This document shows positions 310 to 39,758 of a stretch of 64,000 bases of DNA, piece after piece. Both the position numbers and the translations under genes were made by a program. The stretch spans positions 5,731,501 to 5,795,500 of the forward strand of contig JASSKH010000023.1 of assembly GCA_031763025.1 (NCBI GenBank), given 5' to 3'. The notes beneath the pieces were generated by a model. It did not search any database and was not told where the DNA came from. It worked only from the letters and a program-made list of their open reading frames with translations. Source of the stretch: Macrocystis pyrifera. Lineage: Eukaryota; Sar; Phaeophyceae; Laminariales; Laminariaceae. The stretch's first letter is position 1. Each line of letters starts with the position of its first letter.

Positions 310-3300
310 CTGCGAGATCCTCACGCGCACCGGAGGCAGGGTATCGGTGAGGCCCGCGTGGGCCTGCGCCGTCGCTCTCAAAGAGTTCTTCAGCACCTCA
401 AACAGTATGTGATGGACGTGGCTCGGTATGCAGCTGGCTCTAGCCTCGACATTCCCCTCTGCCCCCCGTCACGTATCGACACGGAGAAGAAAAGGGCGGT
501 AAGCAAGGGGTTTCATACCCCAAGGGCGGTGGGTTGGTCGGAGGCGGGTCGGGGGTTATCTTGGGGGATTACATTGAGGCTTCGTGGTGGTGGTCGTTAA
601 GGGAGGTGAGTAGGGGGTTGGGGGATACAGGGGTCGGTGGTCTCGTACCGGCGGGGGCGGTCAGTGGAGGCGGGTTAGCAGCGGGCGGGGGGGAGGGGAG
701 GAGGAAGGGGGGGGGGGGGGGGCGTACTCATTTTTTTTATTCGCCTTAGTCGTTTGGACCATTGACCACGCATCATTTTCGAAACGGACCCAGGAGCGTT
801 GGGTGAAAAAAAAAAAAACAAAAAAAAAACACACACACACACCCTTGGAAATATTTCGTTCGAGAGATTTCCAGTAGAAGTGAGTCATCGCTCGGCGTTC
901 GCAAAATCTTTTCCGAGATCGGCTTCAAAAGCTCGTCTGAGGGTGGTGCCTTATTTTCTAGTACGGAGGACCATACAGTAGTAAATAGGACCAAATATTG
1001 TTAATAAAAAAATAGGTAAATATATAGCTTTTAGTGTGTGCCGTAGGTCCTACTTACTATGGTCCCCCGTAACAGCGTGATCTGCGGTATATATATATAT
1101 ATATATATATATGCGCAAAAAAAAAAAAAATCAGAAAAAAAACCGTACGTGTCCGACACGTACGGTTCCAACCCTCATCACAGCAAGTGGTGCGTGTTCT
1201 CGTATCAGGACTAGGCGCACCAAAAGCAACATATTGTAGGGTGTCGCGGTTTCGAGCCGCGGCCAGCAAACGCCCCGGCTGCTTATTCCAACCACGCTGA
1301 GTGTGTTTTCGAATCATCTCGCAATGTATTTATTGCTCAATAATTTTATCGCACCACACACATACTGGTATATACACATATATATATATATCATCGCGAG
1401 TTTTCTAGCCTATCCTTTTCTCTATCTTAACCGTAGTCGTCATTCTGTTGTTTGTCTTTTTTCCGGCTTGACGTGGGGCTGCTGTTGTACCGCGGCTGCC
1501 CAGACGTAGAGTATTCCTGGTATTGCAACATTTTTGTTGTTGTTAATAGCTGTTCTCCCAAGCCCCCCTCTCTCTCGTGTAACGTGTCAGAGCTCACCGA
1601 TGACGACGTCGGGAGAGTCGACGAGGTGGTGCTCGGTTATCAGCTGCGTCTCTCCTGCGGCGGCCGTCGTCGTGCACCGGAACGTAACGGCAGGCGGAAC
1701 CATAAAAGGAAAACGTAAACCAAACACGCAGCAGTATCGGATATCGATATCGGAAATCAATCTCCATACGATACAGATAAACACACAAGGTGATCGATAC
1801 GGTACCGATAAACGCACAAGCTAATCGATACGATACCAATGAACACAAAAGCTATAACCGATACGATATCGTTAAAACACAGAAACAAATTGATACGATA
1901 CCAATAAACAAACAACTTAATCGATACATCTTTTTTCATCATCAGTTTTACTTTTCAGCTTAATTCGTAGGAGGTTTCACCCTCAGCGATTTTCTGGACG
2001 AGCCGTGGTCACACGTGTCGTCCCTTCTCCCCCTGGTACCTACCTTCGCTTCGATCGCGCATAGGGTTCAGCGTTCCCACTGCTCGTCGATTTTCATCGA
2101 ACGTTGCAAACACACGCTCTCGCACTTTCCGCCATTTTTTGTGCAAGAAAAAGTCCCTCGGAGACTTATATCGAAGTCCCATGTAATCGAATCTGAAGGT
2201 TATTGGTGCGATATTAAACACTACGTGACTGCTCTTTCTCTCTCTCTCTCTCTCTCTCTTACCGACGGCGTCGGCGATGACGTCATGAAGGAGGCATCTC
2301 TCCGCCACGATCCCCGTCCTCTCGTCAGAGTTCTCGAGGTCACTGGGCTTCAAGGACTGAAGGAACTGCCTGCACAGCAACTGGAAGCTGATGTGCATCT
2401 GGGTGAGGTGACGTTTGTCAAACCGTTTATTCCGTTCGTCAGCAAGAACAGGCATAACCCAGGGAGGAGCAGGAGCAGGCAGGGAGGGAGGAAGGGGGGG
2501 GGGGGGAAGAAGAAGGGGGGAGGGATTGAAGAGTAGGGAGGTAAAAAAATATGGCACACTCTTCATAAAAAACAGCTAAAAGAGTGTGGTTCCTTGATTT
2601 TTTTCCTTGATCTCGGCCATGCCGTGCGCCGCGCCTTTCACTCCGCTCAGCCAGGCAGCCACATCGCAGTTTCGAAATTCGCGTGCTTGTGTGTATGTCC
2701 GTAGTTTACGTATGTGTGTGTATTGTTCGTGACTGTGTTTAACGCACAACCGTCGACACGCCCCAGTATCTCACATCGCGGAATGAGCATCCCATAAGGA
2801 GAACATCTCTCTACCGCAAACGCCACCCGGACCGACACTCCTTCGCCGTTGCCGCTGTGGCTGTTGGTACATACCGACCCTCCTCCCCCCCCACCCCCAA
2901 CTTTACCTGGAGAAACTCGTCCAGGTAGACCTGCGACATTTCTTTTTCGTGTCCTCGCTTCACCGGGCTGTGCCGGTTCACTTCCAGGAAAGCCTCCATT
3001 AAAGTTTCCTGAGACCCACACGAGAAATGGCGAGAAAGCGTTGAGACAAGGCAAGGTGTCGAACGAGACAAGACAAGACAACATAAGGGCCCATCTCATC
3101 GAGGACTTTTGGTTCTTTCAATCTGATTTGATTTTTTTTTCTAGTTCAATTTGCATTTGATTGGCCGAAGAGTGAATGACCAGGCAGGAGTCGAAGGAGC
3201 AAATTAGAAAAAAACAATTCGAGTGAAAAGTCTTTTGGGAATTTTTTTCGTGTGATTTTTCCAATTTCAATTTCGAATTTGGGATTTGACCAGCCTTGAT

Positions 3301-5864
3301 GTAGCATATTCATGGTGGGTCAACACACCCCCGCTGGAGTCTGGGGTGATTCTTGGTCGCTTCGGTGACCACGGTCGAGGCGATAAAACCCGAACCTCAA
3401 CGACAGGCGACCGGAGCAAATAGCCGCGCCCACGGCCACAGACCATAGCAGCACATCGTACCCCGGCGGTGGCGCCTCAAAAGAAATCACGGCGGCCGCA
3501 GGCCCAATTTTTCGGCCTGCTCGATCGGCCAACCATCACGAAACCGAGCAAACGAGCGAAAAAAAAAAAAACAGAGGATGCGCTCGAGACCTCGATAGCT
3601 GCATCACCGTTGCTGTTCCACACGTGGCGCTTGAGGGCTCCTCCGCCCACCCAAGACACCCTGAGAGTGATAGCTTCCTATCCTGCGCCACCAAGAAGAA
3701 AAAAATGCTGGCGGCGGCGCGCACGCGACAACGAAAACCTTCGCTCTCGTCTACGCTCGTCGCTGTTTATCGGCTGGGCGTTGTGTGACGCGGTGCGTTA
3801 TTCCAGGTTGTTTCGAATTCCTCTTTGTTTGACAATGAATGCGCCGTTTCCCGACAGGATACAAACACGTTTTTTTTCCGAAATCAAATTGAAATTCATT
3901 GAAATTGAAATCTTATTTCCAAATAACGAAAGTTAGCGTTCCCCGTTAATATGGCCCCTAGGAGAAGACGAAGACAACGTAAGACAAGGCAAGACAAGAC
4001 CAGACAAGACAAGACAAGACAAGACAAGACAAGACAAGATAAGGCAAGAAAAAACAAGGCCAGACAAGACATGACAAAACAAGACAGTACAAGGTCTTAC
4101 CACGTTGGAGGCGTGTCGGTTGTTGACGGCATCGACGCAGCGCCGGAAGTCGTCCAGAGGGTCGCACCGCTGGTGCTGAAGCGAGTCCTCCCTTGTATCG
4201 TGCACCATACGGTCGATGATGTGTTGCGCATCGTAAAGCTCCTGCCAAGTTCCCCGTCGGCCCAAAGCAGCAGAGGTACGAAAATAAAATAAGCAAAGAT
4301 CGAACACCATGTACATGAACGCAAGCAAATAGATGAAGAGAAAGAGAAAAGATAACACGAAAAGAAAGAAGAACAAACATCAAATACCCTATATATATTC
4401 TAGGAAAGAAAAAAAAAAACGAGAAAAAAAGAGAGGAAGAGAAAGGAAAACGGAAAACGGAAAAAATTAAAAACGACCAAAAAACAGGACAAACAAGGGA
4501 AAAAAAAACGCAAAAAAGGAAAACCAAAATAAAATTAAAACAATACCAGGTAGATAAATCGTACCTGTATACGACAAGAAAAAGTAAAAGCCATAAAAAC
4601 CAACATGAAAGAAATGAGGCTGCGATGCGGGGTGGGTGAAACCATGCAGAAGGAAGGAGTCAGAGGTGGTAGGACCACAAGTAAAACAAAACAAAAGCAA
4701 GCAAGGCGTGTAAAACAAAAGCAAGCAAGGCGCGCCAACCGCGGGTCGGGCCAGGAAGATTGTGAAATCTTACGGGTCAGCTGGGTCGGGTCGGGTCGGG
4801 TCGGGTCGGGTCGGGTCGGGCCGGGCCGGGTCGGGCCAGGACGTTTTTGAAATCTCACGGGTCGAGCTGGGTCGGCCCAGGTCGGGTCGGGTCGGGTCGG
4901 GTCGGGCCAGGAAGTTTTTGAAATCTCAGGTTAGGATCTGCAGATGACCTATCTGATCTATCTGATCTATCTGTACGGCATGTGGGAGGTTGAAACGCGC
5001 TCTGCTCTGTTCTGTATCTCCACCCCCCCCCCCTTCTAACCCTGGTATTTTCCGGCCACTCGACTCTTCAAAAAGGGCCTGCTCGTAAGATGGTCTATGA
5101 AGAAAGGCCTGCAGGAGGCAAACGCCTTAATATCTACAAAGCTCAACAAAAAAAGGCCTTAAATGGCCTTTGAACGACTTATTTTGAAACTAGCAGTAAT
5201 CAAAAACAAGTCAGCTGCTAACTCGACCGATCGAGGGGTTGATACTCAACTTTGGAAGCTGCGTGATACGTATATAACATATACAGATCGTATATAACAT
5301 ATACAGATGGCGCGTGTTCTATTTACTTCACGTGAGCATTATGGTGCCAGAAAATGTTCAACAAGCACGCGGCGGTCATGTTACGCGTCGTGAATAACGG
5401 GGGCGCTTACGGGGGGGGGCAGTAATCAGAAACAAGTGAGGCGTGTCATCATAGGGGGATACCTGGTTATTGGGTCCAGCGTAGGTTCTGATTATTACGT
5501 CCCCCCCCCCCCGAAATAGCAATAACGCCTCACACTCGAAGTGATCGGTCAACTCCTCGCCAAAAGAGTGCGCGTGCGCCAACACCAACACCAACACCAA
5601 CGCCAACACTATTACGGGGGTCTATAGTTAACAGGACCTATGGTATACATAAAAACCTATCTATTTACCTATTTTTACTAACAAAATTTGGTCCCGTTTA
5701 ACTATGGACTCACGCAGTAACACCAAAGCTAATCCTAACCCTGACCCCACCTGAAAGGTATCGGTGTGCACCCTCAAGAGACGGTCGATGTGCAAGGCAT
5801 TTGCGCCGGGGGGGCGCGGGAAGAGCTCCAGCCTTTGCATCTGATGGGACAGCCTCAAGCACAG
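310..5864 (-). CDS. mitochondrial dehydrogenase kinase (PDK/BCKDK-like), partial, at least 6 exons
   Basis: Family members phosphorylate and inactivate the E1 subunit of the pyruvate or branched-chain 2-oxoacid dehydrogenase complex in the mitochondrial matrix. Exons seen on the minus strand, 5' to 3': 5751-5864, 4101-4241, 2907-3008, 2263-2398, 1598-1654, 310-433. All have AG/GT borders and compatible phases except the last junction. The exons give in order the family landmarks: RLSHQMQRLELFP (RLAHRI-like), VHTDTFQELYDAQ, FRRCVDAVNNRHASNV (the ..RH..VV motif), YLDEFLQMHISFQLL (FLDRFYxxRIxxRxL), GIVAERC, SPDVVI, then CIPSHVHHILFEVLKNSLRA, the start of the GHKL ATPase with N-box Glu and Asn. 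About 10-15 residues expected between SPDVVI and IPSH are missing and the phase does not fit, so a small exon between 433 and 1598 was probably missed. The mitochondrial presequence exon and the C-terminal ATPase exons are not visible. Introns hold a MITE, a retrotransposon tail, a SINE, a (GA)n run and an AAGAC satellite. Pyruvate versus branched-chain specificity cannot be told. Confidence 0.82.
690..793 (-). mobile_element. solitary poly(C) retrotransposon 3' tail
   Basis: The G run at about 709-721 followed by cgtactcat and the complement of the ggatgcgtggtcaatggtc block matches the last ~75 bp of the retrotransposon at 29111-32092. Diverged. It lies in a kinase intron. Confidence 0.7.
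961..1072 (+). mobile_element. TA-MITE copy 1
   Basis: Inverted ends ggaccat..agtaaataggacc and ggtcctacttactatggtcc around an AT-rich core. The 5' end is degraded. Confidence 0.85.
1945..2180 (-). mobile_element. tRNA-headed SINE, diverged copy
   Basis: The SINE body is recognisable (aggaggtttcaccctc, gtggtcacacgtgtcgtccc, cgcatagggttcagcg, cgtcgattttcatcgaac). The tRNA-like head is too eroded to show a B box. Confidence 0.75.
3360..3790 (-). repeat. dispersed repeat, partner at 48925-49345
   Basis: The reverse complement aligns with the later copy through blocks such as caccgccggggtac, gccgtgggcgcgg, gatcgagc and ttgggtgggcgga. No coding capacity is common to both copies. Nature unknown. 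Confidence 0.7.
3965..4090. repeat. AAGAC pentanucleotide satellite
   Basis: More than 15 near-perfect aagac units, ending about 10 bp from the donor of the kinase exon at 4101. Confidence 0.95.
4780..4920. repeat. GGGTC pentanucleotide satellite
   Basis: Two blocks of gggtcgggtcggg separated by a short segment containing gaaatctcacgggtc. Confidence 0.95.
5195..5275. repeat. dispersed ~80-bp repeat (second copy at 60515-60600)
   Basis: Shares gttgatactcaacttt and flanking gcgt.atacg blocks with 60515-60600. Too short to classify. Confidence 0.6.
5612..5720 (-). mobile_element. TA-MITE copy 2
   Basis: ttacgggggtctatagttaa at the left end and ttaactatgg at the right; the right end is mutated (gactcacgcagtaa). 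Confidence 0.9.
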
Positions 5865-5914
5865 CTGCATACGGTGTGCGGCACCGTCCACGGTACAGCA
5901 GCGCAGCGGGCGGG

Positions 5915-5957
5915 GGGGGGGGGGGGGGGGGGCATGGTCAGCGGGCGGGGGAAAGGA

Positions 5958-6018
<61 letters not shown>

Positions 6019-6155
6019 GTCAGGGGGAAGGGGGGGGGGATGCTGTCAAGAAGAGGAGAAAAGGCGAGATAATGGGCCTGTCAACGGAAGATCAGGGGGG
6101 GGATGATAAGGGAAGAGGGGACGAGGAATCGGGGGGGGGGGGGGGGGGGGGGGGT
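5915..6155. repeat. poly(G) tracts
   Basis: Long G runs, especially 5961-6016 and 6130-6154. Run lengths of this size are unreliable in assemblies. They may be tails of poly(C) retroposons on the minus strand, but no flanking tail motif is clear. Confidence 0.85.
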
Positions 6156-6283: not shown

Positions 6284-6447
6284 TAGGATGCCTTGTGGTG
6301 TTGAGCGTTCGCTCTTGTGCAAAAAAGCCTTTGAATAGGTCGGCGTTGGTAACGGGAGGGGACGGGGGAACAGGGAGAAAGGGGCGGGGAAGGATAGGGG
6401 GGGAGTGAAGAGGAGGGTGAGGGGTGGAATGGGTGGGGAGAGGAGGG

Positions 6448-6517
<70 letters not shown>
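6448..6517. repeat. poly(G) tract
   Basis: About 70 consecutive G. It makes spurious poly-Pro and poly-Gly reading frames. Confidence 0.95.
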
Positions 6518-12737: not shown

Positions 12738-13940
12738 TCAAGAAAAGACACGCCCGTCAGACACAGCCAGAGCGAGGCCGAGGTCGCCCTTGACAGAGTG
12801 GGAAGAGTAGGGGTCGGCGAGCACGATGAGGAAGTTACGCGCCGCCAGGTAGGTGCCCCTCGTCGCGAGGTATCTCGAAAACGGCTCAAGTTTACGTCTT
12901 AAGAAATGCTGAGAAGTGCTCAGAACGAAGCACCAACAATTCCACACATGTATTTGTAGTAGGCTATCGTATCACTAATCTCAAGTGACATTCGTCCGAT
13001 GACGTGTGTGCTTGCGTGTTACCAGGTACCTACCATTCTGACCGGTAATATAAGATACGTTGGGTGGTAATATCATTATTAAAACGGGGCTTACATTTGC
13101 GGTCAGAGTGGCACTGGTGTACTGTTTGCGTACCAGGTATACTGAAACTTTCGTGGACTCTGTACTATTACGGGGGACCATAGTAAATAGGACCAAATTT
13201 TGTTAGTAAAATAGGTAAATATATAGGTTTTTGTGTGTACTGTAGGTCCTATTTACTATGGTCCCCGTAATACGATTGTTGATAGACTACAACCCGGTGA
13301 CTTGGTAGATGGTCCGCGTGCCTACCAATATCAATTTCGTGGGTTCGAGTCTCGCCGAGTGCATACTCGTAGTGACTTTTCCTTGCATAAAAATGGATCA
13401 GCGGAAAGCGCGAGAGCGTGAGTCAGCAATATTCGATGAAAAAAAAACGACGAGCAGAGGGATTGCCGAACCCTATGCGCAATAAAAAAGAAGGCACGTA
13501 CCGGGGGGGGGAAGGAACGGCACCTGTGACCACGGGTTTTTCCAGAAGAGTGCTGAGGATAAAACCTCTCTTTTAGGACTGCAGTCTCTCGTGGGGGAAA
13601 AAACCGCTCTAATTCTAAGTAGTTTGGTCCCAAAACGGGACTGCGGTCCTAAACGGGTGAACTGGAAAGTAAAAGTGATGATGAAAAAGGAAAAAGAAAA
13701 AAAACAGTGCTATTAATAGTACCAGTAGACGATACCTGATCTCGGAGGTTGTTGGCGACGAACTTGCTTCTGGAATGGCGGCCGTGGTGCACGAGTCCCT
13801 TGAGTGTGGCCCGAACCGGCTCTCTCGCGGCGTGGTCTTGGACGAGCTGCAGAATGCGCCGCCCGCTCGACCCGAGATTTCGCTCCAGCAGCGCCATGCT
13901 GACTTGTGTGACACCGAAGTTCAGAGTGTGGCGAGTCTTT
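12738..13940 (-). CDS. unrecognised gene, two 3' exons
   Basis: Exon 13736-13940 has acceptor catcacatacag, 68 full codons, and donor cag|gtatcg. It joins in phase 0 to the terminal exon 12738-12908 (acceptor cacttctcag, TGA stop). The combined C-terminal 124 residues include MALLERNLGSSGRRILQLV, HHGRHSRSKFVANNLRDQ, and the hydrophobic segment AARNFLIVLADPY. No family is recognised; ADPYSSHSVKGD recalls a C2-like loop but this is weak. The antisense strand is also open over the larger exon, so strand choice rests on the splice signals and on phase agreement between the two exons. 5' exons would fall in or beyond the N gap, uncomfortably close to the plus-strand gene starting at 14299, so one of the two models may be incomplete. 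Confidence 0.45.
13168..13270 (+). mobile_element. TA-MITE copy
   Basis: Near-consensus 103-bp element, immediately upstream of the SINE at 13283. Confidence 0.95.
13283..13704 (+). mobile_element. tRNA-headed SINE carrying an inserted cccgttttggg element
   Basis: Head gacttggtagatggtccgcg and B box gggttcgagtctcgcc, then the body and an A-rich tail. Compared with the copy at 49637, about 85 bp with ggactgcag at one end and ctgcggtcc at the other has been inserted at 13575-13660. Confidence 0.88.
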
Positions 13941-16308: not shown

Positions 16309-16491
16309 CCGTGCCTGGTCGGTGAAAACCCGACGTACTCCGTCCCCGGCATGGTAGGGATGCGAGGGTCTATGGTCATACGACTACGGCCATGCGTGAT
16401 AATGAGTACACCCCCCCCTCCCTTCCCCCTCCTCCCCTTCCCCCCCTCCTCCCCCCCTCGTCCTCCCCCATCGGCCCTCCCTTCCCTCCTC

Positions 16492-16522
<31 letters not shown>

Positions 16523-16524
16523 CT

Positions 16525-16555
<31 letters not shown>

Positions 16556-16665
16556 CCCCGCCCTCCCCCCCTCCCCCCCTCCCCTCCTCCCCCCCCCCTT
16601 CCTTCCCCCCTCCCTCCCTTCCCCCCCCCCCCCCCCCCCCCCCCCTTCCCCCTACGCTGCCCCCT

Positions 16666-16698
<33 letters not shown>

Positions 16699-16701
16699 AC
16701 C

Positions 16702-16733
<32 letters not shown>

Positions 16734-19101: not shown

Positions 19102-19924
19102 CAGTGCAGCGGACGTCGTGTAGAGGAGAGGACAGGGGAGGACAGGAGAGGACAGGAGAGGACAGGAGAGGAGAGAAGGGAAGAGAGGGACAAGAGAGAA
19201 GAAAGGGAGAGGGACCCGTGATTTTTTATTCCGTTTTGGCCCACATTTCTGTCCGGAAAATTTGGTGTACATAGAGGCCGTAACCCTCTCAGGACTTCAA
19301 AGAGGGGAAAAAATGGACGATACAAAAGTGACTCTTGTATCACAACAATCGCCGCTACTCACCGCGTGACTTGGAGGCATTGTATAATTAATTATTGGTC
19401 GGTGTTCCCGAGATACAATGGTTGATGCAAGTCGTACGGCACGGGCGCAACATGATCTTATTATCTTATACCCCCGTACTGCTTGCTGGGCGCAGCGCTC
19501 ACGCTGGCTGGTCGTAGACGGTCGACAACACCAAAAGTTATCAACCATTTTGTTTCGGTCGCTATCGCTACACACCCAGAGAGAGGGGTTGGTTATAACC
19601 TTTTTGCAGAACGGGGTGCAGCTGTGCGAGCCATACTGTCTCCCCTGTCGGTCGTGGTTTGCCGTCGTCGTCGTCGTCGTCGTCGTCGTCGCAGCGCAGA
19701 CCGAAAACACGAGAGCTGCAGTGTTCTTCTTCTTGTACGATCCCTTCCACAAAACAAACCGCAAGCAAACATGTTGTCTCATCGAGTGTCCGAAAAGAGC
19801 AAACTGAAAAAAAAAACTCGAGGGAACCCATCAGAACAATTCTATATATATGTGCCAAAAAAAAAAGAGGAAGGCTTGTGAGGAGACTCTGGAACAGATC
19901 GAGAAACAATCCACACCTCGGATA

Positions 19925-21830
19925 ACGTAACACTCGGATAACACTTATCTACGTTATGGGGCCTAACACAGGAACGTGGTAACGTACTAACATAGTGTTA
20001 GCACCAGAGGAGCGATCGCGGTAACGCAGTAACACAGTGTTAACTGGAAACCCACGAACGTGCACGAGCCTTAACGTTATGTTGCTGCTCGGTCTCGTCC
20101 AGCTCTGGTACAGTAACATTATGTTATGCCGTGATCAGTCCTTGAACTAACACCGTAACACAGTGTTAGGCTTTGACCAAACACGTACGTTATTACTAAC
20201 ATTCCCAGATCGATATCCGCATGTTTACTAACACGATAACATCATGTTATTGTCGACGCAGCGTTAGAAGCAACACAATAACGTTATGTTTAGGAGGAGT
20301 GTTATACATAACACCCTAACATAACGTTACCATGTTCGCCAGCACCACTAACACATAACATTGTGTTACAGATAACACACTAACGGGACATAACGCAATG
20401 GCCAGCACTACTAACACTACGTTGTCTGGACCCCCCATCTGATTGCCTTAGGGTAGGATAACGTAACACTCTTCACTCGTACGTTAGATACGTTACAGTC
20501 TTGGCCGGCCCATGCGTAACATTATGTTAGGATGTTATAGCCTAAATGCGGAAGTCCCTGTAACATGTTAGGGTGTTACCGTCAGTGAAGATCTGATGGT
20601 AACATTCCGTTACCGTGTTACCATAAAAACCAATCCGGGTCTGACTCCATGTTACTGAGTTACCATTGGGGCCGAAGTCGTTCTAACTCAATGATACTAC
20701 GTTACCCTTTGGATCTTCCCGAGATATAACATGTGTTGCCTTTGTTAGTGGTAAAGCGGGCGTGTGGGAGTAACATAGCGTAGCCGTGTCATCCAATTTC
20801 GCCGACATCCCAGTAGGGGATACCTACAAAAATTTCCCCGGGGGGGAGGATATCATGGCATCCCCGATAAAAAAAAAACGCCTCCATATTTTAAAACCCC
20901 AAACAGGGGATATTTAGGATGGATCCCCGCAAAAAAAAAACGCCTCATTTGTTTTTGTGGAAACCCCGCCAGTACGTTATCCATCTATAACACATTACGT
21001 TATCCATCTATAACGTAATCTGCACACTCGCACGTACGAGTTAACACGGCAGTAACATATTGTTGAGTTTAGATTGGGGGTGTACGTTATCTACTAACTT
21101 GTGTCACTACATACATTGCATACGAGTTAACAAGATTAACATAATGCTATTGATAGTGTTTTATCGATCATACTAGTATACGTTTTCCGTTTGACGTATG
21201 CATGTTATGTTGTTATGGCAGCAAGACTTCCGTAATACCCTCACATAACGTCGCTCGAAACGGACTGCTGCTGCGGGCTGATACAGTAACGTAATGTTAA
21301 CGTTGTATTGACCATACACGCCATCCCTCTAACGTGTGTTACGATATAGCCCCTAGTAATAGGAGTTTCACTAACACACTAACATAGTGTTATGTACGCG
21401 TTTATTTGGCCGTGTACGTTATCCGTCGAAAGGGTGTTACGGTAGCACGAAGAATCCCGCTGACACACTAACATAACGTTACTCGCTACGGGCTGATGCC
21501 GCTAACACGGTAAAATAATGTTGACGTTTAAGTGACCGTGTACGTTATCCCTTTAACGTGTGTTGCGGTAACCACCAGGAATTCCGCTAACACGTTAACA
21601 TAGTGTCACTCGCTATGGGATGCATACCCTAACACCGTAACACATATACTGCGGTCGGTACGAGATCAAGGTAACACTCTTAACATAATGTTACGCGATC
21701 GCCCGCCAAGATCATAACACACTAACACTATGTTATCACAAAATCCAGAAAGTAACGTAAAATGTTACGTTTTTTTTTTTCACTGACTCCTAACATGAAC
21801 ATAAAACGTTAACTGTTACGCTATCCGAGG
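19925..21830. repeat. 42-bp phased array of short palindromes (TAAC-N5-GTTA)
   Basis: A 13-bp imperfect palindrome, consensus TAACATANTGTTA, recurs every 41-43 bp while the sequence between copies is not conserved. Exact TAAC-N5-GTTA matches start at 19988, 20030, 20114, 20156, 20237, 20317, 20356, 20517, 20600, 21287, 21380, 21469, 21681 and 21723; degenerate copies fill the intermediate positions (20072, 20197, 20279, 21330, 21511, 21554, 21596, 21638). Most are preceded about 8 bp upstream by an extra half-site TAACRC. The two arms change together (TAACAC..GTGTTA versus TAACAT..ATGTTA). The segment at about 20810-20965 is a different ~70-bp duplication rich in gggg and aaaa. No substantial open frame. 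The nearest analogy is a protein-binding satellite; function unknown. Confidence 0.9.
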
Positions 21831-22024
21831 TGTGAAACAATCCGTGTTTTGTTGTGAACGGGAGAATTGCGAATTTAGAGGTTGAAACATTCTATGATTG
21901 TGATGAGCGAAAAAAATACAACACATACTTTATGTATATCCCTGAGGAGGTCAGGGACTAGCCGAAACGAAACTAAGCATGAGCAGGTTAAAAGCGGACG
22001 TCAAAAAATTACGATGTAATTAGT

Positions 22025-22213
22025 ATGAGTCCGAGATTTAAATACCTGGTAAACAAAGAAGAGAGCTCGCGCACACGAGATCATTCTCACACAGTTCGAC
22101 AAGCACAGCAATCTCAAACGGGAAGGGCGAGACCTCAGCTGACCAGTGAACTACGTGATCAAGAGCAAAACCTTCCTGGAAAATTGAAGATCAATCTACC
22201 AGAATTTCCGTAG
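22025..22213 (+). CDS. short open frame between two arrays, doubtful
   Basis: 62 codons from ATG to TAG, charged and Gln-rich, ending in LKINLPEFP. It is the only ATG frame in the 2 kb around the palindrome arrays. No homologue is recognised and there is no supporting splice or promoter evidence; it may be chance or a decayed transposon fragment. Confidence 0.15.
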   Translation: MSPRFKYLVNKEESSRTRDHSHTVRQAQQSQTGRARPQLTSELRDQEQNLPGKLKINLPEFP

Positions 22214-22392
22214 TTTCTCCCGCCCACCCACCCCTTTTCTTTCGAAGGTGGGAGGAAAGGAGTTGGTACGAAGTAACAACATTCATTCTGTTAATCTAAA
22301 TACTGTCAGGAGTTTGAATGGTCGAAGACCATTTGGGGTACTCGGTCGTCCGAGACCTCACAGTAGGCCCCAGTCGAGGGGGGCCAAGGGAG

Positions 22393-25789: not shown

Positions 25790-28700
25790 CAAGGAAGTAA
25801 GCGCGACCTAGACATAGTGGGGATTCAAGAGTCGTGGGAGCAAGAGGGGGGGGAGATGGGGTGCAAGGTTGGAGAGTATGCATGGATAGGGAAAAAGAGG
25901 AAGGGACAGAATATCAAGAATAGGGGGGCGGGGGGCGTGGGGTTCCTAGTCAAAGAATACCGTTAAAGTTCCTTGAGCACAACGAGACGAAGGCGTTGAA
26001 CGACAGAGTAGGAAAGGCAGGACCAGAATGGACTAGACAGCGCATAAAAAAAGGGAGAAAGCTCTATCCTTGACTTTATAGTTGTAGAAAATGAAAGTGG
26101 TAAGGACACAGAACTACATGTATGCGCAGCGGACGTAGGAACTACGGATCGCTGTCTAATATAGACAGTCAGCAGACAAGACTCATCTAACATAGAAGAG
26201 GTAGGAAATTGCACAGATGGAGAATAGATAAACTAGACGTAAAAGAGAAACGGGAAGAGTTCCAAGAAGAGACGGCCCAAAACGCAGAGCGTTTTTCCGA
26301 GCTATTGGAAATAATAGGTACAACAAGGAATGATATAGAGAGGGAAGATGGAGGAGCTATTACGGGGGTACATAGTTAGTAGGACCTATGGTATGCATAA
26401 AAATATATATATTTACCTATTTTTACTAACAAAATTTGGTCCCGTTAACTATGGACCCCCGTAATAGGATAATACAAGAATGGAAGCAGTTGGTCAAGAC
26501 CACAGCAGGTAAAGCAATAGGGGAGAAGTTGACAGTATGCAACAGAGCAGTAAAACGGTGGGATGAGGAGTGAAAGAGGCTATAAGAGTAAGGAGAAAGG
26601 CACACGCAAGGTATACATCGAGTAAAACTACGACAGGATGGGAGGAATATGCTATAGCTAGAAAGAAAGTAAAAGAGATGGTAGAGAAAAAGAAGAAAGG
26701 CATATGGAAAGACGTAGTAAATAAAACGAATGAAGACTTTGAGGGCGGGATGAAGCAGATGCGGGTAGGGATAAAAGAGATGCTCGGCAGACAAGCAGGA
26801 GAGGCAGACACGGGAATAGCTACCTTAGGAGCACAGAACGGTAAAATGGATAGCAGTTCGAAGGGCAAAAGAGAAGTGCTACAGTAGTAGAGCACTACCG
26901 TAAGCTAGGAACACCCACAGCGAACGAAGCTTTCGACGCAGAATTCGAGAAGGAAATCAACCCGTGGGCAGAGGCGAACGTAGATGCATCAGAAAAGGAA
27001 GACAGTGGTTCGAAAGGTTACAGAGAGAGTTCACAAGGGAAGAAGTAAGGAAGTGTGTAGCTAAACTTAAAAATAGAAAGGCAGCAGGGGCAGACCAAAT
27101 AGTGAATGAATTTAAGAAGTACGGGGGAGAAGGAATGCTTACCATGATGGTTATGTTGTATAACTGGATATGGAAAAACGAGTACGCACTTCGGAAGTGG
27201 AGAGAAGGAGTTATTCAAGAAAGGAGACAAGGCTGATCCGGGGAACTATAGAGGGACAACGCTATACCATGCACAGTAGGCAAAACATTTTGTATGATTT
27301 TGAACGATAGAATGGGAACGATGATGGAGAAGGAAGCCAAAATAAGCGAAGGGCAAGCAGGGTTTAGGCCAAACCGTAGGTGCGTAGACCATGTGTACAC
27401 CTTAGGCAAGATAATCCAAGGTAGGAAGGACGCGGGACTAACAACGTGCTGTTTCTTTCTAGATGTGCAGAAAGCCTACGACACAGTATGGAGAAATGGA
27501 CTGTGGAAAAAAACTGTGGGAAATAGGAATCAGAGGAAAGATGTGGAGAATGATGAAAAAGATGACGGAATGTGCGAGAAGTGCTGCGATGCTGGACGGG
27601 GAAATATCGAAGTATATTGATATTTTTCAAGGAGTTGCACAGGGATGTACGTTGTCACCTAACCTATTCAAGATATATATATTCACGACCTGATAGTAGC
27701 AGTCGAAGCTGCATGGCAGGGAGTCACGGTAGGGGAAGATACGGTGTCGGGATTGATGTTTGCGGATGGCTTCGTGGAGATATCAGAAACACCCGAAGGA
27801 TTGCAGAAACAAATAGAGAAGGCGCTAGAATACACTGGGAATGGAGGGCGACGGCGAACGTCAAGAAATGCGCAGTAGTTGTTTGTAACGAAGATAAGGT
27901 GAACCCGGTAATTTTCAGTTGGAAGTGTGAGAAGATGAATTGCCGATGGTAGACCAGTATACGCACCTTGGCGTAGAGATCTCAAAAGACTGCTCTTGGG
28001 ATACACATATAGCAAAAGTAGTAGAAAAGGGAAAAACACACGTAGGCAAGATGGGTGCGATCCTAACAGACTCGCACCTTGACACTAGGATTAAGAGATG
28101 TATCCTGATGAATGTGATAGTATCAAAGCTAGAATATGCAGAAGTATGGGAAGGGAACGCGAAACTCGTAAAACATCGGAAACAGTGCAGATGACAGCAG
28201 CTAAAAAAATCCTGAAATGCTCACGTACGACTAGTAATACAGAGCAGAACTGGGAATGCACCCACTCAAGACAAAATAGAGATATGCGAAAGTTGAAACG
28301 GCAATATAAAGTAAGGAACGTGCCAAAAAAGAGGTTGCCAGCCACAGTTGATAGAGCTGTATGGGAGAAAGTAACAAAAGGGCGAGCTGGAGAAAGGTGG
28401 GATGGCTTAGCTGAGAAAGTATGTAAGGATATAGGAGGAAACCAAGAGGTGATGTCCGCCGGGAAGTTTGGGATGTGCAAGGCAGAAGTAGAAGAAAGGA
28501 TAGAAACAAGGGAAACGCTAGCGTTAAGAAACAAGGTGGAATCGGAAGAACACTTAGAGCTTACGGGGGGTTGAGGGAAGGAATAGGAATGAAAACGTAT
28601 TTACACGGACTTCGCGAAAACGCTGAAACTGCGATTTCGTGTAGGTGACCTGGACCTGCCAGAAAGAAGAAAGAGGTACACCAGTAGCCGGGAGGAGGAG

Positions 28701-29078
28701 GAAGTAGATGCACAAATGTGCCCGTGTGGCAAACCAAGAGTAGAACTCACTTACTGTAGTAGGAGAATGTGAAATGTACAAGGAGGAACGGGATGTGCTA
28801 GAAGAAAAGACGAGGGAATTTGACGAATGTGACATGGAGGAGTTTGATACAATGAATAGCAGCGAGAAAACGATCGCTATCCTAGGAGATAGATGGTGGC
28901 CACAGGAGGCCAAGCAGGAAGGGGATAAGATTAGCAAAAAGTATCTATGTAATATATGGAAACAACGTAATGAGCGCCCAAACGTTGGAGGTGTCTCTAT
29001 TAGGAGTAGGAACGGTGCTCCGTCTCGAAAGGGATGCGTGGTCAATGGTCAAATGACGAAGGCAAGCTACAAACGAGT

Positions 29079-29110
<32 letters not shown>
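25790..29110 (+). mobile_element. non-LTR retrotransposon copy A, degenerate
   Basis: Starts in an APE endonuclease (DLDIVGIQESWE, then GGVGFLVKEY near 25930), with much of the endonuclease core deleted before LDFIVVEN (about 26070). A long basic linker follows, then reverse transcriptase (FLDVQKAYDTVW near 27455, LMFADGF near 27758 where the other copy has MFADDF), a CPCG..  knuckle (28718) and the GCVVNG tail into poly(C) (29080-29110). Multiple frameshifts, a MITE insertion at 26360, and a G-for-D change in the catalytic FADD box show it is dead. Family: APE-type LINE with C-terminal CCHC motif. Confidence 0.93.
26360..26464 (-). mobile_element. TA-MITE nested in retrotransposon copy A
   Basis: Retrotransposon copy B has the uninterrupted site gcaggagctaggataat; copy A has gagcta-MITE-taggataat. 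Target duplication is therefore exactly TA and the ends are TTACGGGGG..CCCCCGTAA. Confidence 0.97.
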
Positions 29111-29111
<1 letters not shown>

Positions 29112-32092
29112 TATGCATACAAAAGGGAGAAAGCTCTAACCTTGACTTTATAGTAGTAGAAAATGGAAGTGGTAAGGAAACGGAACTGCATGTATGCGCA
29201 GCGGACATAGGAACTACGGATCACTGTCTAATATGGACAGACAGTCAACAGACGAGAGTTATCAACATAGAAGAGGTAGGAAATTGCACAGATAGATAAA
29301 TTAAAAGAGAAACGGGAAGAGCTCCAAGAAGAGATGGCCAAAAATGCAGAGAAATTTTCCGAGCTGTTGGAAAGAATAGGTACAACAAGGAACGATATAG
29401 AAAGGGATGATGCAGGAGCTAGGATAATAGAAGGATGGGAGCAGTTGGTCAAGACCACAGCAAGTAAAGTAATAGGGAAGAAGTTGATAGTATGCAACAG
29501 AGCGGTAAAATGGTGGGATGAAGAAGTGAAAGAGGCTATAAGAGCAAGGAGAAAGGCACACGCAAGGCATACATCGAGTAAAACTTCGACAGGGTGGGAG
29601 GAGTATGCTATAGCTAGAAAGAAAGTAAAAGAGATGGTAGAGAAGAAGAAGAAAGGGATATGGAAAGACGTAGTAAATAAAACAAATGAAGACTTTGAGG
29701 GCGGGATGAAGCAGATGTGGGTAGGGATAAAAGGGATACTTGGCAGACAAGCAGGAGAGGCAGACACGGATATAGCTACTCTAAGAGCACAGAACGGTAA
29801 AATGGTTAGTAGTTCGAAGGGGAAAAGGGAGGTACTAGTAGAGCATTACCGAAAGCTAGGAACACCCACAGCCAACGAAACGTTCGATGCAGAATTCGAG
29901 AAGGAAATCAACGCGTGGGCAGAGGCGAACGTAGATACCTCAGAAAGGGAAGACAGTGGTTCGGGAGGGTTACAAAGAGAGTTCACAAGGGAAGAGGTAA
30001 AGAAGTGTGTAGCTAAACTTAAGAATAGAAAGGCAGCAGGGGCAGACCAAATAGTGAATGAATTTATGAAGTACGGGGGAGAAGGAATGCGCACCATGAT
30101 GGTTATGTTGTATAACTGGATACGGAAAAAAAACGAGTACGCACCTAGGAGGTGGAGAGAAGGAGTAGTAGTAAATTTATTCAAGAAAGGAGATAAGGCT
30201 GACCCGGGGAACTATAGAGGGATAACGCTACTAAGCACAGTAGGCAAAACATTTTGTAAGATTTTGAACGATAGAATGGGAACGATGATGGAGAAGGAAG
30301 ACAAAATAAGCGAAGGACAAGCAGGGTTTAGGCTAAACCGTAGCTGCGTAGACCATGTGTACACCTTAGGTAAGATTATTCAAGGTAGGAAGGACGCGGG
30401 ACTAACAACGTACTGTTTCTTTCTAGATGTGCAGAAAGCCTACGACACAGTATGGAGAAATGGATTGTGGAAAAAACTGTGGGAAATAGGAATCAGAGGA
30501 AAGATGTGGAGAATGATGAAAAAGATGACGGAATGTGCGAGAAGTGCTGTGATGCTGGACGGGCAAATATCGAAGTATGGTGATATTTTACAAGGTGTTG
30601 CACAGGGATGTACGTTGTCACCTGACTTATTCAAGATATGTATTAACGACCTAATAGTAGCAGTCGAGGCAGCAAGGCAGGGAGGGAGTCACGGTAGGGG
30701 AAGATACGGTATCGGGATTGATGTTTGCGGATGACTTCGTGGGGATATCAGAAACACCCGAAGGATTGCAGAAACAAATAGAGAAGGCGCTAGAATACAC
30801 CAGGAAATGGAGGGTGACGGCGAACGTCAAGAAATGCGCAGTAGTTGTTTGCAACGAATATAAGGTAAACCCGGTAAATTTCAGTTGGAAGTGGGGAGAA
30901 GATGAATTGCCGATCGTAGACCAGTATACATACCTTGGCGTAGAGATCTCGAAAGACTGCTCTTGGGATACACATATTGCAAAAGTAATAGGAAAGGGTA
31001 AGGCACAAGTAGGCAAGATGGATGCGATCCTAACAGACCCGAACCTTGACACTAGGATTAAGAGATGTATCTTGATGAATGTGATAGTACCAAAGCTAGA
31101 ATATGCAGGAGAAGTATGGGAAGGGAACGCGAAACTCGTAAAACAGTTGGAAACAGTACAAATGACAGCAGCTAAAAAAAATCCTAAGATGCTCAAGTAC
31201 GACTAGTAATACAGTATTAAGAGCAGAACTGGGAATGCGCCCACTCAAGACAAATAGAGACATGAGAAAGTTGAACTGGCAGTATAAAGTAAGGAACATG
31301 CCAAAAAAGAGGTCGCCAGCCATAGTTGATAGAGCTGTATCGGAGAAAGTATCAAAAGGACGAGCTGGAATAAGGTGGGATGGCGTAGTTGAGAAAGTAT
31401 GGAAGGATCTAGGGGGAAACCAAGTAGAGATGATGTCCGCCGGGAAGTTTGGGAGGTACAAGGCAGAAGTAGAAGAAAGGATAGAAACAAGGGAAAGGCT
31501 AGCGCTAAGAAACAAGGTGGAATCGGAAAAACACTTAGAGATATACGGGGGATTGAGGGAAGGAATAGGAATGAAAACGTATTTGCATGGCCCAATGGAC
31601 TTCGCGAAAACGCTGAAACTGTGCTTTCGTGTAGGGGACCTGGACCTGCCAGAAAGAAGAAAGAGGTACACCAGTAGCCGGGAAGAGGAGGAAGTAGACG
31701 CACAAATGTGCCCGTGTGGCAAAGCAATAGAGAGTAGAACTCACATAGTAGGAGAATGTGAAATATACAAGGAGGAACGGGATGTGTTAGAAGAGGAGAT
31801 GAGGAAAATAGACGAATGTGACATGGAGGAGTTTGATACAATGAATAGCAGCGAGAAAACGATCGCTATCCTAGGAGATAGATGGTGGCCACAGGAGGCC
31901 AAACAGGAAGGGGATAAGATTAGCAAAAAGTTTCTATGTAATATATGGAAACAACGTAATGAGCGCCCAATTGTTGGAGGTGTCTCTATTAGGAGTAGGA
32001 ACGGTGCTCCGTCTCGAAAGGGATGCGTGGTCAATGGCCAAACGACTAAGGCAAGCAACAAACGAGTACCCCCCCCCCCCCCCCCCCCCCCC
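29111..32092 (+). mobile_element. non-LTR retrotransposon copy B, 5'-truncated, head-to-tail with copy A
   Basis: Begins directly after the C run of copy A, near the end of the endonuclease domain (ELHVCAADIGTTDHCLIW), and ends in its own C run (32070-32092). Close to copy A throughout but with fewer lesions; see the reading frame entry. Confidence 0.95.
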
Positions 32093-36255: not shown

Positions 36256-36605
36256 GCTATTCACATATTGGACAGATCACGGTCTACTGTAGATCACCTG
36301 GACTATATATATACTTTCCGATACACACATCCCATCCCCTCCCATCCCCTCCCATCCCGACCCACCCAACCCCCACCCCCGCCCCATCCAAAACCGTTCA
36401 CACATCGATCCTCTGCGTGCCGTTAGAGCACTTGATAGCAGTATCACACAGATCCCCTACATACCCGGAAAAAAATGCAAGAGCTGTGGCACACAAAAAC
36501 CACCATCCACCCCGCCAAAGATGTCCGGAGACACGTCAAGCAAGGCAAAAAACGTGCGCCGTCAAGAGTTTAGGGCCGATCGTTCCATGCCAAAACCTAC
36601 TGGTA

Positions 36606-36711
36606 TTACGGGGGACCACAGTAAACAGGACCAAATATTGTTGGTAAAAATAGGTAAATATATAGGTTTTTGTGCATACCGTAGGTCCTGTCAAACTATG
36701 GACCCCCGTAA
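36606..36711 (+). mobile_element. TA-MITE copy
   Basis: Complete, with a small change in the right arm (cctgtcaaactatgg). It lies 130 bp downstream of the tafazzin C-terminal exon. Confidence 0.95.
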
Positions 36712-36841
36712 TAGTAGTTTTGGTGTAGGTCAAGCCATGTCAAGGCAAAAGTTGCTGTCTGCAAAGGGGTGAAAGCGGTGTCTCCAGAAACCTTTGCACG
36801 CCCCACTCCACCTCAGCAACTGGCCTTGGGGCCTGCTTTAC

Positions 36842-39758
36842 CTCGTCGTCAGCGCCTCCCCTAGCTGCGGACGCCGAGTACTTCCACAGCGGCCCGTGTT
36901 CGTCCTCGTGCTTGGCGAGAAGGTCCGCAACTTCTACCGGATCGCCCACCCTAATGGTGATGTCGTTATAAGGCTGGGGCTGCCCCTGGGAACATCATGG
37001 CATCGAGGACATGGAAGGTCGAGGATTGGAGGGGGGATGAAGGCTTGGGGGGCGTATGGGGGATAGGTGGGGGGGGGGGGGGGGGGGGATCATCGTCATG
37101 CATGGCTGTAGTCGTATGACGGGGGCTGGTCGAGAAATAGAGGAGAGCGAGGGGGGGGGGGGGGGGGGGGTGCATCAGGCTCAATTCAAGAACGCCTCTC
37201 CCAAACAAAATTAGCGGAAACCAAAATACGGGGTCTCTGTCGTGCAATGAGTACCACGCGGTGAGAGAGCGTGCTCCTATTTTTGGTCTTCTTGGAAACG
37301 TAAAAGGTTCACAACCGTTATGTGTTTTAGCTCGTCAACGAGCAACTGACCGATCAACAAGCCAAGCATTCAACCGAACCAACCAACTCAACCCAACCCA
37401 ACCCAACCAACCAACTCAAACCAATGAACTCGACCCGACCAAACCACCAAACCAACCAACCAAAACAACCAATCATGCCAACCCACCAAACCGACTAATC
37501 AAATCAACCAAACCAACCAATCGAACCACACAACTCAATCCAACCAACCAACCAACCAACCAACCAACCAACCAACCAACTCAACCCAACCAACCAATCA
37601 GAAGACCAATCATACCAACCAAACCAACCATTAAAACAACCAACCAACCAAACCAACCAAACCAACCAAACCAACCAAACCAACCAAACCACACCACTCA
37701 ATCCAACCAAGTAACCAAAAAAAAAAACTCCACCCAACTCACCGGCAGCACGTCCTTGGTAGCGGGGGTCCTCGGCCACCAGATTCTGCATCCCCGTGTG
37801 GAAAAAAGGAACCACCCGCGGGGTGCGCGGCGCGTGCGCGATCATCTTACCGACGCCCCACTTGAGCAGCCCCAGCTCCGCCGACGTCGGAGGCGCCCTG
37901 CCCCCGATCGTTCCCGTCTACTAAACACGCATCCAATCAAAAAAGAGAACGAGACGCGGCGAGTTGTGTGTGCGTCGCAACAAAAAGTGAGGTGGGGAAA
38001 AAAGTGCGGCGGGATGCGTGCGGCGGGTCAAGGGTAAAATGCGCTGCGGCAGGCGACGACTCGGGTTAGGTGCGGCGGTTTTGTAGGCGCCCTTTTGCTC
38101 GCCCCCGATCGTCCCCGTCTAATAGACATGCATCCAATCAAAAACGGAGAACGAGATGTGGCGGGTAAGATAAGGGCTACCATAAACTTAAAAAGTGCAT
38201 AAAAAATAAGCCGTGCTACGGAAGGGGTTTGCACTTCTGAGGCGTGAACAATTCCACACGGCGGACAGATAGATGACGATCTATCTGTAGATCATCTGCC
38301 GTCATGAGATGCCCTGCGCTACATATATATATATGTCTATTAAACTCTGCTGTAGTACAGATTCAACCCAGGATCGACATGTCCCTAAATCATGCAGGCT
38401 ATACGGTTCCCTCCCACCCGAAAACATGAGCTAGATCATACAGACTATACAGATCAGGGATATACCTTCCCTGAAAGATCTAGATCGTGATCTGTAGATG
38501 ATCTATCTGTAGATGATTTGTCCGAGGTGTGAACTAATTATCACTGGCGGGGGGGGGGGGAGGGGTGTACTCATTGTCATGCATGGCCGTAGTCGTATGA
38601 CCATAGACCCTCGCATCCCTACAATGCCGGGACTTAGCGCGTCGGGTTTTCACCGACCAGGCAGACGTTGCTTGCACCAAGCGCGAAGCGCCGTGAGGTG
38701 TCCGGCGAGCCGCATGAAGGGTTCGCTACATCCTACTAAGAACCGCTTTAGAGGCGGATTTTCTTGCATATGGATGACACCATCAATGAATTGGTTTAAT
38801 TTCTGGTGTGGCCACTTCCAGAGACAGCAATGGGCTTACTATGTAACTGCCTCGTGGGTGCCTCACCATATACACACTACGTGATACGATCACCCCCCTT
38901 GTGCGGAGTGAAGGTTGGTGCTCCCCGCACAAAAATGATCTAACTTGACCGCCGGCCGTGGTAACCGCCGAAAAAAAAAAAAAAAAAAAAACGGTACCCT
39001 GGCTGTCTAGCTCGCGCAATGAGAGGCGTGTTTGACAGCGTCGTCGCCAACCGACGCCAACCCAACCTATATATATATATATGCCAGGTATATAATATAG
39101 GGTGGGGGGGGGGGCTTCTGACGTGAGGTGGTACCCGAAACGTTCGGATCCGCTACGTCTTCTATACTACTATAAATAGATTAATAGTGTCCGTCTGACA
39201 TCCTACACGAAGAGCAAAAAAAAAACGAACCTGTATTAAGTGTAAGTACCGTCATGTGCGCAATCGCAAAAAAAAAAACTCTACACCGTATCATATACTA
39301 TTACGGGAGACCATAGTAAATAGGACCAAATGTTGCTAGCAAAAATAGGAAAATACATAGGTTTTTGTGTGTACCGTAGGTCCTATTTACTATGGTCCAC
39401 CGTAATAATATATTTATACCTGCACTGTCTTTCCCTCCGGAAATATGTGACACCACTCCCCCGCCGCCAGCTTCCTTGAGAAGTCTAGCAGCAACTTCTG
39501 ATCCACCCCGGCGCCCCTCTCGATGGGAAGCACCTGAGCGTGCCACGCCAACAAACAAGTCGGGAAGAGGAAGGGGGGGGTTCGGGGAGTTGGGGGGTGG
39601 AAGGGCGGGTAGAGGGGGGGGGAGGGGATGGACGTGGGAGGGGGGAGGGGCGGTAGAGGGGGGGGGGGGGGGATACTCAGTTGTTGCTTGCCTTTGTCAG
39701 TCAACCATTGATTGACCACGCACCCCTTTCAAGACGGAGCAGGACGTGGGGGATGTGG

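Follow-up and report, generated by a model that had tools for sequence, protein, structure and literature searches.

Positions 19912–21834 of the window (the whole 64-kb stretch of DNA analysed here) hold 1923 bp of phased TAAC and GTTA half-sites, the array body of a mobile element bounded by 21-bp terminal inverted repeats (TIRs). This is very probably a member of a multi-copy family of non-autonomous, cut-and-paste DNA transposons, without a coding part and with two subterminal arrays of putative binding sites taking up nearly all of its length. The element has defined ends flanked by a target-site duplication (TSD), the ends are present in hundreds of places in the genome, the phased array recurs in nearly all sampled copies and there is no long reading frame. 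Among the readings offered in a preliminary description of this DNA, that of a transposon's binding array has held up, as the array occupies an element that lies between TIRs and a TSD and whose ends number hundreds genome-wide.

Borders and layout of the element

The two TIRs agree at 20 of 21 positions when one is compared with the reverse complement of the other, and AAACAATC lies directly outside both of them in the window copy as an 8-bp TSD (Table 1). A 10-bp duplication would fit the window copy alone, as does one of 8 bp; it was rejected as it is not seen in the other copies, which favour 8 bp. Inverted ends and duplication were both absent from the preliminary description. The TIR itself carries TAACGTAAC half-sites, and GGATAACGTA, taken from inside the TIR, recurs within the element in both orientations, as if one protein were to read both TIR and array. 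In its fullest form the repeat unit consists of three half-sites, TAAC-N4-TAAC-N5-GTTA, that occupy 21 bp of a 42-bp step and occur in both orientations.

Table 1. Features of the window copy and its borders
Feature	Position	Strand	Description
Target-site duplication, left copy	19904..19911		AAACAATC; identical to 21835-21842
Terminal inverted repeat, left	19912..19932	+	CACACCTCGGATAACGTAACA
Left array	19980..20424	+	TAAC-N4-TAAC-N5-GTTA units, forward for the most part, in ~42-bp steps
Internal repeat of TIR-proximal sequence	20456..20471	+	16/16 identical to element bases 9-24; also in the consensus
Inverted block	20517..20747	-	Units TAAC-N5-GTTA-N4-GTTA, same 42-bp step as the left array
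Central linker	20775..20975		Without TAAC or GTTA; last TAAC start 20771, next GTTA 20976
Right array	20976..21813	+	Units largely in forward orientation, plus TACGTTATCC motifs similar to the inner TIR part
Terminal inverted repeat, right	21814..21834	-	TGTTACGCTATCCGAGGTGTG
Target-site duplication, right copy	21835..21842		AAACAATC

Several other repeats were seen in the window. A sequence of ~110 bp occurs in more than ten places (e.g. 13163–13272, 26357–26467, 36604–36714, 39298–39407 and 47802–47912); some of its copies match their own reverse complement, and it is probably a short palindromic MITE. Region 26465–32092 holds two direct copies of a non-LTR-type element with an RVT_1 domain, 91 % identical over 2.7 kb. 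Reverse transcriptase was also the one match over the cut-off when 15 ORFs of the window were compared with Pfam, and for the reverse transcriptase at 29334–30734 the nearest named relatives come from Ectocarpus, among 120 of 205 matches listed, on which basis a brown alga is assumed as the host. Tracts rich in C or G, 73 to 322 bases long, are found at 16411–16732, 5908–6039 and 6445–6517.

A dispersed family with shared ends

When the window's own assembly (537 Mb, 223 contigs) was searched with the 16-bp TIR tip, 764 exact matches were obtained (389 forward and 375 reverse), compared with none in a reversed control. Among the 100 tip places listed of these 764 we found 27 inward-facing neighbour pairs within 11 kb, with lengths of 1590 to 10,774 bp (1590–2075 bp in 19 of the 27), and six close neighbours in other arrangements. 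For a copy sample, 40 stretches around listed tips were taken, from which L121 and L122, which overlap and cover the 10.8-kb pair, were set aside to leave 38; L093–L100 were not counted. Both ends were present within four mismatches in 34 of the 38 separate stretches, the remainder being L131, L132, L133 and L136. Of 16 further compact copies, 12 can be aligned with almost the full window copy as a single block, at 79.5–92.1 % identity, and L109 (1603 bp) has a shorter array with ends and TSD intact.

Across the 34 copies the 8-bp flanks match at all eight bases in 12 and at seven in 16, i.e. at least seven in 28 of 34; in the other six the matches number 6, 5, 4, 3, 3 and 1, giving no clear duplication. 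As a control, flanks taken from different copies reached seven or eight matches in 74 of 1122 pairings, a figure inflated by the fact that eleven copies share one TSD. These eleven (L101, L106, L109–L113, L124, L125, L127 and L128) carry GAAGTTTG or a one-base variant. In ungapped comparison with L109 the right flank is 95–99 % identical in seven of the ten others, and five of those seven are also 75–97 % identical to L109 in the left flank; most GAAGTTTG copies would therefore represent one insertion carried by a larger duplication, and are not independent. Copies with closely similar flanks are those at C126:2924900-3237358 (L109–L112 and L128) together with L125, joined for the right flank by L101 and L113, and their sequences apparently reflect a single insertion multiplied inside a larger duplicated unit. 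Collapsing the TSDs to 19 (two of which are probably the same site, and with the window copy excluded) gave the consensus nAAnnTTn. Position 2 is A in 35 of 38 strand-readings of the 19 sites, and position 7 hence T, since each site was read on both strands.

Flanks of L114–L116, L126 and L137 are only 20–37 % identical to those of L109, and the copies are spread over many contigs, several with unrelated flanks. The 34 copies together contain 456 TAAC-N5-GTTA palindromes over 78,419 bp of element sequence; none was counted in 33,111 bp of their flanks, in the 62,077 bp of window outside the element or in 57,573 bp from 18 transposase-gene loci, so that the absence of arrays outside the element rests on ~153 kb counted. 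These figures bear on the reading of the array as a host element with phased binding sites (a centromere, origin, insulator or anchor), for which dyads at four helical turns would suit a dimeric chromatin protein and the phase is indeed highly significant. The sharp borders set by TIR and TSD, the hundreds of ends and the lack of palindromes in the ~153 kb counted outside the element all argue against such a role, which we consider very unlikely from the sequence. The centromere, origin, boundary and chromatin-anchor functions proposed at the outset thus found no support, given that copies lie on many contigs, several in unrelated surroundings, and that in the sequence counted the motif stops at the ends.

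Two further candidates were rejected. For a structured RNA, two Rfam matches were returned in 19500–22300, both far below the gathering score. An origin from a virus or prokaryote was considered because 14 bp of the tip matched 90 viral stretches and the composite motif two, but none of the 92 matched viral loci has more than two palindromes, which is the level of chance.

The half-site array within and between copies

In the 64-kb window TAAC-N5-GTTA has 14 exact matches, as had been reported for the array, all of them within 19988–21735. Over 100 shuffles of the whole window the average was 0.97 (largest count 5), or about 0.03 per 1.9 kb, in agreement with the earlier chance estimate. Half-sites are similarly enriched, with 63 TAAC and 45 GTTA in 1923 bp, where the remainder of the window predicts 3.8 and 3.5. 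The proposed phase of ~42 bp is equally clear, as 42 same-orientation half-site pairs are spaced at 41–43 bp compared with 12.1 when gaps are permuted, followed by 31 pairs at 83–85 bp (9.9 expected) and 29 at 125–127 bp (8.9 expected); for each of these three distances, none of 5000 gap permutations reached the observed count.

The finer points of the preliminary description fared less evenly. Ten of its 17 core starts are exact, and the other seven (20072, 20197, 20279, 21511, 21554, 21596 and 21638) are degenerate in the window copy; those at 20279, 21511 and 21596 are exact, by position, in the family consensus. The extra half-site placed 8 bp upstream of the core is found for many units, but in 20517–20701 it lies downstream, and the units there are thus inverted. 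The suggestion that arm bases vary together was not borne out: at the C/T–G/A position 15 of 22 consensus cores are complementary vs 13.4 expected if independent, with 9 of 14 vs 7.4 in the window copy.

A consensus built from 17 copies of 1.85–2.1 kb, the window copy included, is 1911 bp long and contains 69 TAAC, 54 GTTA and 22 perfect palindromes, with no stop-free stretch longer than 75 codons. Its GTTA positions have a peak period of 41.9 bp; those of TAAC peak at 7.0 bp and 40.6 bp, the value at 41.9 bp being only slightly lower. For 31 grid cores selected by eye, 18 of the 30 steps from one to the next measure 42 bp and five measure 43 bp. Taking the 34 copies one by one, the commonest half-site lag in the range of 20–65 bp is 42 bp in 33 and 43 bp in L102.

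Thirty consensus units were aligned on the grid. The eight arm bases are 82 % identical between units, a figure partly built in as units were picked on their own TAAC, and the middle five bases 52 %. The third TAAC, eight bases upstream, reaches 63 %, and the remaining spacer positions 30 % vs 26 % from composition alone; neither the upstream TAAC nor the spacers played a part in choosing the units. Spacers are thus for the most part unlike each other, as originally described, but this does not extend to the diverged duplications present in the array. At 21211–21640 these occur at ~131 and ~224 bp with 70–74 % identity, and shorter internal matches are found at 20299–20417 (74 %) and between 21042–21091 and 21503–21549 (78 %). 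The duplications at ~131 and ~224 bp suggest that part of the right half grew by duplication, and to that extent speak for an ordinary tandem (satellite) array with inverted ends arisen by chance. For the array as a whole we hold this origin to be highly improbable: head-to-tail units are not alike over their whole length, unit spacers being 30 % identical against a background of 26 % while arms reach 82 %; Tandem Repeats Finder reported no array in 19912–21834; and copies located elsewhere repeat the entire layout.

Whether spacers are as conserved as cores, the outcome that had been named as decisive for a plain satellite, has a different answer at each level of comparison. Within one element they are not, the spacers being near random. 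Between copies the two are about equal, with minor-base frequencies of 4.9 % in cores and 5.3 % in spacers, as expected for neutral decay of copies of one master sequence. Relative to the consensus, cores of the window copy differ more than spacers (4.9 vs 3.0 %), and among single copies cores are slightly lower in L119, L123 and L124 and equal in L139. The consensuses of two subfamilies are 6.1 % apart in cores and 6.0 % in spacers; with sites of either counted, the values are 7.2 and 5.6 %. Preferential conservation of cores between copies was therefore rejected, there being no consistent difference, and at the level of sequence, constraint on the sites is visible only in the unit-to-unit comparison within one element.

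Partner genes, related systems and proposed mechanism

In the copies read, we recognised neither an autonomous member nor a transposase linked to these ends. A Pfam scan of ten ORFs from the long copies L102, L105, L121 and L134 gave no transposase domain, the 10.8-kb pair having been examined as ORF lists of its first 9.5 kb, from which five ORFs were scanned. In the longer copies compared, length appears to derive at least partly from inserted sequence: L102–L105, L107 and L134 match the window copy piecewise around other sequence, and L101 holds at 684–4421 an open LINE frame (1245 codons) that encodes endonuclease and reverse transcriptase domains and is nested in the element copy. This open frame suggests recent LINE activity.

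Transposase genes elsewhere in the assembly were compared with the exact tips on contigs C125–C138, for which the tip list was taken as complete. All five MULE (PF10551) matches on these contigs, of 94 in the genome, lie at least 70 kb from an exact tip, and the MULE loci L141–L150 (about 3.1–3.3 kb each) contain no end pair or array. Many MULE-domain matches have identical scores and a 208-codon frame (e.g. C189:23597797 and C191:14461553), perhaps a separate young MULE family. For hAT (PF05699), the 19 matches on the same contigs, of 150 scored, are all at least 7.3 kb from an exact tip, the nearest standing beside a complete end pair and outside it. None of the hAT loci L151–L158 (3.2 kb each) has an end pair, and two with a few extra TAAC showed no array on reading. 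Searches for KDZ (PF18758) and P-type (PF21787) domains gave no matches in the genome, with the controls equally silent in both cases.

The features of the element are those of a TIR transposon, with inverted repeats at both ends, a TSD of fixed 8-bp length and a dispersed multi-copy family. As to superfamily, 8-bp duplications fit hAT, KDZ (Zisupton, Dileera) and MULE. The hAT superfamily prefers nTnnnnAn as its target, whereas the duplication here is nAAnnTTn, with A and not T at position 2. Identity between the inverted ends extends over 21 bp, whereas TIRs of >100 bp are typical, if not universal, for MULEs. CACTA/EnSpm elements are set apart by a 3-bp TSD and CACTA ends, the present element having an 8-bp TSD and CACACC ends.

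Published descriptions allow closer comparison with four systems. Maize Ac/Ds (hAT) resembles the element in its short TIR (11 bp), its 8-bp TSD, its several short subterminal sites, which in Ac are bound cooperatively by the transposase, and its hundreds of non-autonomous copies (PMC3260210). It differs in TIR and motif, with AAACGG hexamers in the terminal ~200 bp (PMC3260210), where the 1.9 kb of the present element carry dyads accompanied by a third half-site, in steps of 42 bp. In En/Spm and other CACTA elements, such as soybean Tgmt*, subterminal motifs are likewise repeated in direct and inverted orientation; they are bound by the helper TnpA in En/Spm and number 4+24 in Tgmt*, where they pair as palindromes; CACTA ends, too, start with CAC, but Tgmt* has a 3-bp and not an 8-bp duplication, CACTA in place of CACACC ends and other motifs (PMC2613891). 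Muta1, a MULE of Aedes aegypti, is similar in its TSDs of 8–9 bp (8–10 bp for MULEs in general), its short subterminal repeats (nine tandem copies of 12 bp) and its more than 300 putative non-autonomous copies with variable repeat number; its TIRs measure 145 bp and its repeats lie 3–4 bp apart, in contrast to a 21-bp TIR and a 42-bp step with near-random spacers (PMC5225508). Zisupton and Dileera of the KDZ group likewise have 8-bp TSDs, whereas in two Kyakuja families the TSDs are 7 bp long and TIRs are absent (PMC12730594); in the brown alga Ectocarpus, KDZ elements make up 1.8 % of the genome (PMC12477816).

Protein binding, action as a dimer, cooperativity, synapsis, mobilisation in trans and the cut-and-paste mode are what we infer for the element. 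As the binding of subterminal motifs is established for Ac and En/Spm, the array is read as subterminal sites with putative binding. Dyad symmetry and the 42-bp phase (4 × 10.5 bp, i.e. four helical turns) suggest a dimer on one face of the helix, and many gene-less copies with 8-bp duplications imply a transposase acting in trans. An autonomous relative elsewhere would make the protein, either the transposase or a helper like TnpA of En/Spm, which would dock as a dimer on each TAAC-N5-GTTA dyad, its contact extended by the third half-site 8 bp away. The 42-bp step would set the dyads on one helix face, where bound dimers may cooperate and draw the two ends together for cutting, and insertion would then duplicate 8 bp of target (nAAnnTTn).

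Known requirements for transposition are far smaller than this array, with three AAACGG hexamers given for Ds (PMC3260210). It is possible, if rather doubtful, that the transposon is as described and that the array acts mainly as a titration or regulatory platform, which soaks up transposase or a host repressor, or brings about silencing via a host DNA-binding protein, with a few terminal sites serving transposition. Such a platform overlaps with the reading preferred here and differs in the purpose of most sites. It would account for ~120 half-sites in the consensus, well above the Ds minimum, and for copies such as L109 that have shorter arrays and keep intact ends and TSDs; the presence of TAACGTAAC in the TIR and the recurrence of the inner motif inside the element point instead to a transposase that binds the ends. 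More speculatively, the ~30 units on a 42-bp grid could be a scaffold for a transposon-coded dimeric protein that polymerises along 1.9 kb on one helix face as a filament-like synaptic or silencing complex, with an end type unlike those of Ac, En/Spm and Muta1 and possibly a superfamily beyond those tested; we regard this proposal as improbable.

A limited literature search, which did not include Repbase, found no earlier description of the element. The pattern is not one of chance, and its basis, a non-autonomous DNA transposon, is ordinary; the array stands out by its length, its regularity and the three half-sites of its unit, known subterminal arrays with which it was compared being shorter or without so long a fixed phase. 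Identification of the element explains a striking pattern that could be mistaken for a centromere or boundary. With hundreds of natural ends and varied array lengths on a fixed 42-bp grid, the family offers a means to ask how many sites, and which helical phase, a transposase needs. Furthermore, its definition by ends, TSD and array is usable for annotating brown-algal genomes, in which many DNA transposons are unclassified, including 51 'DNA/Unknown' families in Ectocarpus (PMC12477816).
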